DNA of 64,000 nt from Axinella damicornis (Eukaryota > Porifera > Demospongiae > Axinellida > Axinellidae). The notes beneath the pieces are model-generated. The model saw nothing but the letters and a program-made list of their open reading frames with translations, searched no databases and was not told the DNA's origin. Where the stretch lies: assembly GCA_963931865.1 (NCBI GenBank), contig OZ007512.1, forward strand, positions 6,690,208 to 6,754,207, read 5' to 3'. A program made the position numbers and the translations under genes. This document shows, piece by piece, positions 15,870 to 63,683 of this stretch (positions are counted from its first letter, which is position 1; each line of letters begins with the position of its first letter).

Positions 15870-16009
15870 CTTTCCTTCCATAACTTCATTCATCACTAAA
15901 AATGGAGGGATACATCAGAGAATGGCTGTTGCAGAGTCACAAGCTCCCAGAGGAAAATTCCATAGGAATAGATGTCACATGACTTAGAGACTGGGCTTCT
16001 TTTCATCAT
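15870..16009 (-). pseudogene. Kinase subdomain VIII-X exon with 1-nt deletion
   Basis: After a tttctttcag acceptor the frame reads SKSCDIYSYGIFLWELVTLQ and QPFSDVS. It then loses frame, resuming FLVMNEVMEGK up to a GTATAC donor. The exon is 140 nt, whereas 141 nt (phase 0/0) would restore the reading, so one base is missing near 15900. DIYSYGIFLWELVT is the conserved F-helix region. Confidence 0.85.
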
Positions 16010-16241
16010 CTGAAAGAAAATGGGCAAAGAGACTCTCAAGTCGTCTGTAGAATAAGCCATTAGCGTAAACCCTTTGCTCATAAGAACGGTATGGAGCAGA
16101 AAGCACTGCTGAATCTGACGACCACACAACCATTATTTGTGTGCTTGCTCAGTTTGGTCACACCTGTAACCTCACAAGGAATTCTGTTAGTCTGGGTCCT
16201 CAACAACCAGTCTCTTTGGCCAAAGACTGTTCGGGTATATT

Positions 16242-16445
16242 ACTGTGAACTAAAAATTAGTTAGCAGTCTTTGTCTGCACAAACTTCATCAACATACAAT
16301 GCGACGTTTCGATCCCAAAGGATCTTCGTCAGGCAAGTATAGCAAAGTGCTTGCCTGACGAAGATCCCTCGGGATCGAAACGTCGCATTGTATGTTGATG
16401 AAGTTTGTACAGACAAAGACTGCTAACTAATTTTTAGTTCACAGT
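16242..16445. repeat. 204-bp hairpin (inverted repeat) in an intron
   Basis: Arms of about 90-100 bp (ACTGTGAACTAAAAATTAGT onward) are nearly perfectly inverted around a short loop near 16336-16350. The arms contain the 'gatcgaaacgtcgcattg' motif. It lies in the kinase-pseudogene intron between the DFG exon and the next. Confidence 0.9.
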
Positions 16446-16625
16446 AGCTACTAGCTACATATACAAGGGCATATGAGAAACAACACCAGCATGATCGTCA
16501 GAGCAACTGGAAGCTATCGCTGTCCTTAACTAGCTGTATAGGCTCACAACTGATAGTTCCACGAAGCCACGTATAATGCATGAGCTATTGATAAACGTTA
16601 TAGCTTAGTGCTTATTTCCGCCCAC

Positions 16626-16712
16626 CTCTGGGGCCATCCAGGCATAAGTTCCAATGGCTGTTGTTTGCTTTGCTATGTGTTCCAGTCTCCGAGCTGAACT
16701 GAGGTCGCAGAT
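16626..16712 (-). pseudogene. Kinase activation-loop exon (DFG position, APE)
   Basis: Taken from the most proximal ttcag acceptor, this 87-nt phase 0/0 exon reads ICDLSSARRLEH, a middle segment, then TAIGTYAWMAPE, and ends at a GTGGGC donor. It joins the upstream VLVRSDLNAK exon to give NAK-ICDLSSARR, where ICDFGSARR would be canonical. The Mg-binding DFG is DLS here and DLG in the repeat units next to it. The acceptor and first 19 nt have been amplified into the adjacent minisatellite. Confidence 0.85.
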
Positions 16713-16926
16713 CTGAACAGAGGTCGCAGATCTGAACCGAGGTGGCAGATCTGAACCGAGGTCGCAGATCTGAACCGAGGTCGCAGATCTGAACCGAGGT
16801 CGCAGATCTGAACCGAGGTCGCAGATCTGAACCGAGGTCGCAGATCTGAACCAAGGTCGCAGATCTGAACCGAGGTCGCAGATCTGAACCGAGGTCGCAG
16901 ATCTGAACCGAGGTCGCAGATCTGAA
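16701..16926. repeat. 19-bp minisatellite built on a splice acceptor and DFG codons, 12 copies
   Basis: Twelve 'cagatct' units of 19 bp (GAGGTCGCAGATCTGAACC on the plus strand). Read on the minus strand each unit is TTCAG followed by ATCTGCGACCTCGG, which is the 3' splice site and the first codons (ICDLG) of the kinase activation-loop exon. The unit length equals the distance between the intron-terminal TTCAG and a TTCAG inside the exon (the Gly-Ser-Ala codons), so slippage or recombination at this microhomology explains its birth. Since 19 is not a multiple of 3, all frames stay open and give a spurious 19-residue repeat frame. Confidence 0.93.
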
Positions 16927-17060: not shown

Positions 17061-17357
17061 CATGATACAGCTAGTACACCTGATGCCTAGGAGACCACAT
17101 GATACAGCTAGTACACCTGCTGCCTAGGAGACCACATGATACAGCTAGTACACCTACTGCCTAGGAGACCACATGATACAGCTAGTACACCTGCTGCCTA
17201 GGAGACCACATGATACAGCTAGTACACCTGCTGCCTAGGAGACCACATGATACAGCTAGTACACCTGCTGCCTAGGAGACCACATGATACAGCTAGTACA
17301 CCTGCTGCCTAGGAGATCACATGATACAGCCAGTACACCTGCTGCCTAGGAGACCAC
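17061..17357. repeat. 37-bp minisatellite, eight units
   Basis: Unit CATGATACAGCTAGTACACC + tgctgcctaggagacca, with a 37-bp period and very low divergence between copies. It lies in a kinase-pseudogene intron. Confidence 0.95.
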
Positions 17358-17516
17358 ATGTGTGGCTTCCTGCCAAATCTGACCCTCAACTGAATGCTTT
17401 CTCTGGGACTGATGCCTACTGTCAGCCACAAGCTGAACAAAGATCTACTTTGTTTAGGGAGGTCAGTAAAAGTGTTCAGCCGTGTACGTAGCTTGTAAAC
17501 TCATCTGACAGTGTAT

Positions 17517-18229: not shown

Positions 18230-18237
18230 GCATATAC

Positions 18238-18295
18238 CATTGCTTGACTTCAGATCTCAATGGATAATATTCTCGGCTGAAAAGATAGATCATTC
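18238..18295 (-). pseudogene. Catalytic-loop exon with stop in HRD
   Basis: The acceptor ttgttcttcacag and donor GTATAT bound 58 nt. Reading in phase with the previous exon gives GMIYLFS, an extra C, then ENIIH-stop-DLKSSN. The family pattern is YLHSxxIIHRDLKSSN, so the HRD arginine codon has become TGA (a CGA to TGA change is the simplest explanation) and one base is inserted just upstream. Either change would abolish kinase activity. Confidence 0.82.
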
Positions 18296-18445
18296 CTGTG
18301 AAGAACAAAGTGAAATTCAATCATTTACCACATCACGGTTACCACTGTTGCAGGCCAACCCTAACGTACTGCATTCTAAGGCTACATGTCACAAGCCATT
18401 CACTATCAACAGCTATGATCTGACACCCCCCACTCTAGTACGTAC

Positions 18446-19215: not shown

Positions 19216-19293
19216 ATACGACATAGTAGAATCTTTGCGAGCCTTCCCTGTTATACTATCTATGCTAGTTGCTATGACAACACGGTAGCTTAC

Positions 19294-19457
19294 CTCTCTT
19301 TCATCAAATTCTATCAAGGTCTTGATGGCCACAATCTTTTTCCTAGATATCCATCGTCCCTTTGACACTGCTCCGTATATCCGCCAGCTCCGACCTTCTC
19401 CATGAACTCCAGGTCAGAATAGTGTTCCACCCAACCTTTGATCTCGCTCTGACCTCC
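19294..19457 (-). pseudogene. Kinase N-lobe exon: Gly loop and VAIK
   Basis: Begins after acattacag, reads GGQSEIKGWVEHYSDLEFME and KVGAGGY, then breaks because two extra bases (TA) follow GGATA near 19375-19381. It resumes in another frame as GAVSKGRWISRKKIVAIKTL and IEFDERE, ending at a GTAAGC donor. The Gly-rich loop and the VAIK lysine are recognisable. Entry phase is also off by one relative to the preceding Death exon. Confidence 0.82.
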
Positions 19458-19563: not shown

Positions 19564-19822
19564 CTTTGATGTATTTGGCGGTGACTTCATCTGCCAACTT
19601 GTACAGCTTCATGTTCTTCAGTGTCTCCGCAACCACCTTCCATGAAGCGGTGGGGGATCTCACATAGTGGTTGATGATAGACTTCATTTTCTGCCTGGTA
19701 CAGCCTTCGGGTCTCCTCTCGCTTAGAGTATGGCACACCAAACCTGAAGCGCATATCGTCCCAGCGGTCTTCTTCCCCCTTCACCACCACCATGAGGTTG
19801 TCAGTGGTGAGGGTGGGGTCAG
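19564..19822 (-). pseudogene. Third Death-like module, frameshifted
   Basis: The frame starts DPTLTTDNLMVVVKGEEDRWD and DMRFRFGVPYSKREETRRLY, then shifts near 19690-19700 into KMKSIINHYVRSPTASWKVV and AETLKNMKLYKLADEV before a GTACGG donor. It aligns with the two upstream modules (TLTVEN ... W ... GVPxSKxxE ... SPxASW ... LADE). The usual ccctcag acceptor is here cacccag, offset by three bases. Confidence 0.75.
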
Positions 19823-20292
19823 CTGGGTGGGAGACAACACAATATGCATCTCAAAATGGATACCTCAGAGTCTTCAGTGTCAGTATAGTATGAAAACTAG
19901 CTACTGATCAAGTTTCCATTTTATGCTCACCATTTCCCTATCAATTTCTCTTATGTTGCTGATGGGATTTGCAAGTAGCTACCATTCTTCTGTAGCTATA
20001 GTGCAATGCAAACCTTGTACTATGAGCTATCCGCAACTCACAAAACAACAGCATAGCTACATCATTGGAACTGTGTTCTATACGAGCCAATTGTAGCTAG
20101 TGAATTTAGTGCATGCACTGTCCAGGGACAAGTTGTGTATTATGATCAAAGTGACGAAACTAGCCATGCTGTAATTTGACCAGTTCTCCTTCCAATGAGT
20201 TGAGAAGCAATGTGTTTCTGCAGATTTAGTGCTGTCCAGGAGTTCAGTAACGCTGCAGTGGAATGCAGTTTATTGACAAGAAATGTACATAC

Positions 20293-30562: not shown

Positions 30563-30953
30563 GGTGATAGTAAGACCTGAGACATCACATTCCAGTAGTG
30601 CTTGCTCAGTGAGCCCACTCATTAATTCATTATCATAGTCACGAGGTGATAGTATGACCTGAGACATCACATTCCAGTACTGCTTAATTTATTATCATAG
30701 GCATGAGGTGATAGTATGACCTGAGACATCACATTCCAGTAGTGCTTGCTCAGTGAGCCCACTCATTAATTCATTATCATAGTCACGAGGTGATAGTATG
30801 ACCTGAGACATCACATTCCAGTACTGCTTGCTCAGTGAGCCCACTCATTAATTCATTATCATAGGCACGAGGTGATAGTAAGACCTGAGACATCACATTC
30901 CAATACTGCTTGCTCAGTGAGCCCACTCATTAATTCATTATCATAGTCACGAG
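30563..30953. repeat. 82-bp satellite, block 1 left part
   Basis: Unit AGGCACGAGGTGATAGTAAG + acctgagacatcacattcca + gtactgcttgctcagtgagc + ccactcattaattcattatcat. About five units, one with an internal deletion. It continues beyond the inserted transposon at 32006. Confidence 0.95.
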
Positions 30954-32005: not shown

Positions 32006-32650
32006 AGTCACGAGGTGATAGTATGACCTGAGACATCACATTCCAGTACTGCTTGCTCAGTGAGCCCACTCATTAATTCATTATCATAGGCACGAGGTGA
32101 TAGTAAGACCTGAGACACCACATTCCAGTACTGCTTGCTCAGTGAGCTCACTCATTAATTCATTATCATAGGCACGAGGTGATAGCAAGACCTGAGACAT
32201 CACATTCCAGTACTGCTTGCTCAGTGAGCCCACTCATTAATTCATTATCATAGGCACGAGGTGATAGTAAGACCTGAGACACCACATTCCAGTACTGCTT
32301 GCTCAGTGAGCTCACTCATTAATTCATTATCATAGGCACGAGGTGATAGCAAGACCTGAGACATCACATTCCAGTACTGCTTGCTCAGTGAACCCACTCA
32401 TTAATTCATTATCATAGGCACGAGGTGATAGTAAGACCTGAGACATCACATTCCAGTAGTGCTTGCTCAGTGAGCTTACTCATTAATTCATTATCATAGG
32501 CACGAGGTGATAGTAAGACCTGAGACATTACATTCCAGTACTGCTTGCTCAGTGAGCCCACTAATTAATTCATTATCATAGGCACGAGGTGATAGTAAGA
32601 CCTGAGACACCACATTCCAATACTGCTTGCTCAGTGAGCTCACTCATTAA
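32006..32650. repeat. 82-bp satellite, block 1 right part
   Basis: About 7.8 units of the same satellite as 30563-30953, with alternating variants (cccactcatt/ctcactcatt and gtagtgc/gtactgc). Ends inside a unit at the next minisatellite. Confidence 0.95.
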
Positions 32651-53699: not shown

Positions 53700-54210
53700 A
53701 CCTGATAGAGACACACATTCCAGCACTGCTTGCTCAGTGAGCCCACTCATTAATTCATTATCATAGGCACGAGGTGATAGTAAGACCTGAGACATCACAT
53801 TCCAGTACTGCTTGCTCAGTGAGCTCACTCATTAATTCATTATCATAGGCACGAGGTGATAGTAAGACCTGAGACACCACATTCCAGTACTGCTTGCTCT
53901 GTGAGCTCACTCATTAATTCATTATCATAGGCACGAGGTGATAGTAAGACCTGAGACATCACATTCCAGTGCTGCTTGCTCAGTGAGCCCACTCATTAAT
54001 TCATTACCATAGGCACAAGGTGATAGTAAGACCTGAGACATCACATTCCAGTACTGCTTGCTCAGTGAGCTCACTCATTAATTCATTATCATAGGCACGA
54101 GGTGATAGTAAGACCTGAGACATCACATTCCAGTATTGCTTGCTCAGTGAGCTCACTCATTAATTCATTACCATAGGCACGAGGTGATAGTAAGACCTGA
54201 GACATCATTC
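53700..54210. repeat. 82-bp satellite, block 2
   Basis: About six units of the same satellite as at 30563-32650, again at the right edge of the segmental duplication, so the satellite was copied with it or seeded both sites. Confidence 0.95.
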
Positions 54211-63239: not shown

Positions 63240-63683
63240 CTCTCCTGCCACAACTTTCTTCATCACCATGAATGGCGGGAAAACATCAGAAAATGGCTGT
63301 TGGTGTGTCAGAAGCTCCCAGAGAAATATTCCGTAAGAATATACATAGAGAGTGGATCTCTCAGCATCATCTGAAAACGACGAGATAAACAGATCGTAAT
63401 TACAATTTCAAGACAGGGCATCCCAGTACAATAATTTAATCAGGTTTTGACAATAAGCAGAGATGAATTTAATTGTGGGTCATTGTCAAGACTGGCACAC
63501 AATGTATGGGAGTGCACTGGTTCAGGATATTGGTGCAGTGTGCTCGGTTAGAGTGTGGCTACTCGGTGTCGTGTTTGCGAATAAGGTCCAGCACAACACA
63601 CAAACCTTGATTCTTCCCCTAGATACACTAATCGCTTCCTGCTTCCCTTTCATCCCAGATCGTGTCAGCCTTGTTTCCAGGCC

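Follow-up and report, generated by a model that had tools for sequence, protein, structure and literature searches.

The start of the activation-loop exon of a kinase gene in the 64 kb window (the whole stretch of DNA that was analysed) carries a tandem array of twelve 19-bp units on the minus strand. It is very probably a boundary-spanning minisatellite similar to the amphioxus 'mirages', which have been reported as minisatellite-like tandem duplications of intron-exon boundaries, splice acceptors included (PMC3087553, PMC3902484); it would have been born by slippage or exchange between the arms of a 5-bp direct repeat, and its host gene would be a duplicate, now decaying, of a TKL-type kinase gene. 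One genome contains the founder state, the 5-bp direct repeat and two arrays that differ in length, so that the slippage origin is directly testable.

Layout of the array and of the kinase gene

The array runs on the minus strand from 16926 to 16694 as 12 units (TTCAGATCTGCGACCTCGG) and a final TTCAG, a size of 12 x 19 + 5 = 233 bp. A sequence-only reading of the window had placed it at 16701-16926; the array is real, and that span was 7 bp short at one end. As that reading described, each unit consists of TTCAG followed by ATC TGC GAC CTC GG (the first 14 exon bases), with base changes in some units: eight of the 12 are identical and the other four carry one substitution each, and three of these four are the units nearest the exon. 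Analysis by TRF gave 97% matches, no indels and a score of 438. In the relatives described below, the unit sequence combines the 3' splice site with the codons that open the activation-loop exon (ICDLG, in ICDLGSARRLE..TYAWMAPE), and the 19-bp unit is accordingly predicted to span the exon-intron boundary, as placed by the single-unit paralogues and the kinase reading frame. The following features were located in the window:

19565..19823, minus strand: upstream exon B, with an 8-nt deletion near 19696
19293..19457, minus strand: glycine-rich-loop exon C, with +1 in the first 30 nt and +2 near 19378
18918-18832, minus strand: kinase exon D
18545-18447, minus strand: kinase exon E
18234..18296, minus strand: catalytic-loop exon F (3' end approximate), with TGA for the HRD arginine at 18259-18257 and +1 near 18272
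16926-16922, minus strand: first arm of the 5-bp direct repeat (TTCAG)
16699..16926, minus strand: 19-bp array of 12 units, each with the 3' splice site and the ICDLG codons
16694..16698, minus strand: last TTCAG, within the Gly-Ser-Ala codons; it forms the second arm of the direct repeat, and L010-L013 have the same layout with one unit
16921-16626, minus strand: exon H if acceptor 1 is used, 296 nt and frame-shifting
16626..16712, minus strand: activation-loop exon H at its ancestral size of 87 nt (ICDLSSARRLEHIAKQTTAIGTYAWMAPE), if acceptor 12 is used
15870..16012, minus strand: kinase exon I; one nucleotide is missing near 15911, a loss private to the window copy

As single-stranded DNA, the array strand was predicted to fold better than all of 200 shuffled sequences (200/200, z -4.4), and the palindrome CAGATCTG is present in the repeat. 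This predicted folding, together with the palindrome, fits what would be expected of a slippage-prone repeat, and is not proof of slippage.

The gene was classified through L011, a paralogue that looks intact and matched the Pfam family PK_Tyr_Ser-Thr (8.7e-49). Among solved structures, the top row was an EGFR-labelled chain and the next three were ZAK/MLT kinases. Among the best 120 of 677 matches in the protein search, the best was an unnamed protein, 48% identical across 43% of the query, and the first named protein was a partial MAP3K20 of Aplysia. By similarity the gene is a putative TKL-type protein kinase, TKL being the group name that we assume for it. Exons A and B, upstream of the kinase domain, matched no Pfam family; we suspect, and do not claim, a death-like domain upstream of the kinase domain. 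At 63240-63344 lies an exon of a further kinase of the same family (74% identical to exon I of L011), with more exons found beyond the window end, in L017.

Founder state and distribution of the array

At least 43 matches, at ~40 places, came from a DNA search with the exon region; the best-matching 12 of these places were compared with the window, making 13 loci. Two of these carry arrays and the other 11 have one unit per exon. In five of the single-unit loci (L010, L011, L012, L013 and L019) the acceptor TTCAG and the TTCAG of the Gly-Ser-Ala codons are 19 nt apart and enclose a single unit, and the first four of these are the best-matching single-unit relatives. The length of the array unit thus equals the TTCAG-to-TTCAG spacing, and that spacing is still single in the nearest paralogues, as the sequence-only reading had proposed. 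That reading had named paralogues without the exact spacing as evidence against such an origin. They do exist, at six of the 11 single-unit loci, and all six match less well than the best four; the second word is CTCAG in L014, L015, L017, L018 and L020 and CTCGG in L016, and the acceptor word of L020 is TTTAG. In L014, a more distant paralogue, the activation-loop exon is duplicated in tandem (2222-2308 and 2814-2888), the two exons lying ~580 bp apart and having identical acceptors.

The 226-Mb assembly was searched with a pattern of two adjacent units (at most 3 mismatches), the reversed pattern serving as control. All 31 matches fell within the window array or one other array on the same contig (C8), and the reversed pattern gave 0 matches, which argues that the array is not due to chance. 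The second array lies at the homologous exon, ~133 kb from the first, and has 21 units in 404 bp. A check set beforehand, for arrays away from the kinase exon, found none with at least two units in the assembly. A dispersed satellite was rejected because no adjacent units occur elsewhere in the assembly, and origin by insertion or from a transposon was rejected because the unit is wholly accounted for by the exon boundary and is single in the relatives. The 13 loci were also scanned for further arrays at exon edges, and beside the two known ones only a 12-bp run of 2.2 copies, next to exon D of L013, was found.

In both copies the two TTCAG words are separated such that the array measures exactly n x 19 + 5 bp, which is the expected product of slippage or unequal exchange between direct repeats of 5 bp. 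The ancestral exon would have had TTCAG at its acceptor and a second TTCAG 19 nt further on, in the Gly-Ser-Ala codons. If the two words misaligned, through replication slippage or unequal exchange, the 19 bp between them would have been copied, and once two units were present, more slippage or exchange could have raised the unit number. The array would then have persisted most likely through the absence of selection against it. We infer both that slippage or exchange was at work and that the array is neutral; since no two-unit intermediate was found among the 11 single-unit loci, the first step is drawn from its end points. With the founder spacing kept single in the nearest relatives, the earlier proposal of a microhomology origin at a kinase splice acceptor is well supported.

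Many splice acceptors end in CAG, and short words containing CAG are frequent in codons, so the same step could happen at other exons.

The two array copies, gene decay and splicing

The array loci sit in a segmental duplication in which the gene blocks flanking the array are 97.9-98.6% identical. Across the last unit and 541 bp downstream, a single base, located in the last unit, distinguishes the window copy from the sister; upstream of the array, 1 of 160 bp differs. Despite this near identity the sister has 21 units and the window 12, so the array is unstable in length, and a C at unit position 12 is found in 9 of the 21 sister units vs 1 of the 12 window units. A 37-bp minisatellite in the intron ~135 bp upstream of the array (window 17061-17360) also differs, with 8.1 copies in the window vs 5.1 in the sister.

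Lesions were called against L011, whose kinase exons stay open over the stretch that includes the glycine-rich loop, HRD and ICDLG and in the exon after it. Common to the window copy and its sister are the 8-nt deletion in exon B, the +1 and +2 insertions in exon C and the TGA in place of the HRD arginine. The exon B deletion, which by itself leads to a stop in the original frame inside exon B, is absent from L010, and the exon C insertions are absent from L010 and L011. Sequencing errors are unlikely, since the main lesions are common to two separate loci. Private to the window are the +1 frameshift in exon F and the -1 in exon I, neither of which the sister has. L010 has damage of its own (a 4-nt insertion in exon B and an 8-nt deletion in exon C), and exons F, G and I were not found in it; in L012 only exons G and H were found. 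With a stop at the HRD arginine and indels in exons B, C, F and I, the window copy does not have the make-up of a working kinase, and the gene is by its sequence a pseudogene. As this gene copy is dead, the bearing of the array on the kinase itself is small.

Most simply, the array would have arisen after the split from the single-unit loci L010 and L012 and before copying to the locus 133 kb away; after the duplication the window copy would have come to 12 units and the sister to 21, with variants that differ between them. The deletion in exon B and the insertions in exon C probably arose on the same branch as the array, and the HRD stop before copying to the second locus. The stop is not dated more closely because the HRD exon was not found in the stretches of L010 and L012 that were compared. 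Upstream of the exon the window is the closer match of L010 (96.9% identity), whereas downstream L010 is 94.8% identical to the window and nearer to L012 (96.5%), which suggests that exchange between copies mixed their histories. In the window and L010 the last unit reads AGT where L009, L011 and L012 have GGT; given the AGT common to the window and L010, the single unit of L010 could be a contracted array, and the first expansion would then be earlier.

Acceptor strength was scored with a crude matrix built from 23 related acceptors of the family, whose own scores were 2.2 to 16.7. On these few, related sites, the added window acceptors scored mostly 2.7 (range 0.4 to 7.1) and the native acceptor -1.5, while the native acceptor of the single-unit relatives scored -1.1 to 3.0. 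As the added sites score at least as high as the native one by this crude matrix, the native site is not a predictable winner on local sequence. The unit contains no stop codon in any of the three frames of the coding strand. Use of the intron-proximal acceptor (acceptor 1) is predicted to give a frame-shifting exon in both copies, of 296 nt in the window, where it runs into a stop, and of 467 nt in the sister. In-frame use of this outermost acceptor was rejected, as it is out of frame in both copies.

These acceptors bear on the order of events. The array could have grown in a still working gene and been the first disabling change, the added intron-proximal acceptors capturing splicing and shifting the frame, and the other lesions following. 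The frame shift from the intron-proximal acceptor in both copies, the scores of the added acceptors and the placing of the array on one branch with the lesions of exons B and C are all consistent with this sequence of events. However, the matrix comes from few related sites and ranks the native site of the single-unit relatives low too, and amphioxus mirages are reported to leave normal splicing undisturbed (PMC3087553, PMC3902484). That the array came first and helped to break the gene is something that could have happened, and we consider it rather unlikely. A broader proposal, in which this genome makes boundary mirages by slippage between the CAG-ending word of an acceptor and a word in the exon, array growth silenced the kinase copy and copy number modulo 3 sets the tolerated splice choice, is improbable.

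The near identity beside the array would also be expected if the two array loci were one locus assembled twice (uncollapsed haplotypes), with 12 and 21 units as alleles. Both loci are on one contig, 133 kb apart, blocks of the wider region are 80 to 98.6% identical with their order broken by large gaps and shifts, and each copy has private differences, so this is quite improbable. Two duplicated loci, each with its own array length, is the reading kept here.

Acceptors 3, 6, 9 and 12 of the window are predicted to keep the frame and the other eight of 12 to shift it; in the sister, 7 of 21 are predicted to keep it. A functional splicing device, in which copy number determines which of the acceptors are frame-keeping and so yields length variants of the activation loop (in-frame insertions after ICDLG from acceptors 3, 6, 9 and 12), is very improbable, since the early stop in exon B and the HRD stop are independent of the array and no choice among these acceptors yields a complete kinase. 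A working splicing ladder was likewise rejected because the gene is broken, and the array looks like a mutational fossil. The live kinase gene with twelve usable acceptors of the sequence-only reading was not borne out, the gene being broken relative to L011 and only 4 of the 12 acceptors keeping the frame. The equivalence of the twelve acceptors put forward in that reading is one of sequence.

Known boundary minisatellites and neighbouring repeats

Mirages have been reported in amphioxus Adh3, the globins BflGb6 and BflGb9, TnC (troponin C) and PGBD5, with 10-72 bp per unit in Adh3, 150-160 bp per unit in the globins and unstable length, two BflGb6 haplotypes having 6 and 3 units (PMC3087553, PMC3902484). 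The window array belongs to this type by structure: its unit spans an exon-intron boundary, its 19 bp lie within the published 10-160 bp (PMC3087553) and its copy number varies. Undisturbed splicing, as reported in amphioxus, accompanies the type and does not define it. Unlike the mirages as reported, it sits in a pseudogene, and its unit is bounded exactly by a 5-bp direct repeat and is single in relatives. The repeat had been put forward as an unusual one for an exon boundary; the phenomenon itself was already known from the amphioxus mirages (PMC3087553), and what is unusual is the legible origin. According to the amphioxus globin paper (PMC3087553), it is unclear how boundary minisatellites are generated; the visible founder state and the direct-repeat mechanism are the additions made here.

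In human segmental duplications, internal tandem repeats are reported to alter gene structure, some at exon-intron boundaries, with an average unit of 30 bp repeated 4 times, transcript evidence and intron formation (PMC2812944). The window array likewise is a minisatellite in recent gene duplicates whose number differs between near-identical copies. In Drosophila, changes of intron position have been attributed to tandem duplication (PMC2891723); unlike that case, the window shows no new intron or intron position. Among the matches listed from the open-licence literature, none dealt with a 19-bp array in a kinase gene or with a sponge minisatellite at an exon boundary.

A near-perfect palindrome of MITE-like form lies in the intron after the array exon (window 16241-16446), with 97-nt arms that are 97% complementary and 12 nt apart. 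Parts of its sequence were found beside exon H in L002, L004, L005 and L006, so that the palindrome probably predates the array. Over the whole window, 33 merged tandem arrays of period at least 10 cover 6.3 of 64 kb, which looks dense; tandem arrays are thus common in the window. One 82-bp minisatellite unit recurs at 30563-30953, 32009-32650 and 53708-54207, and a longer array of it was found in the sister region.
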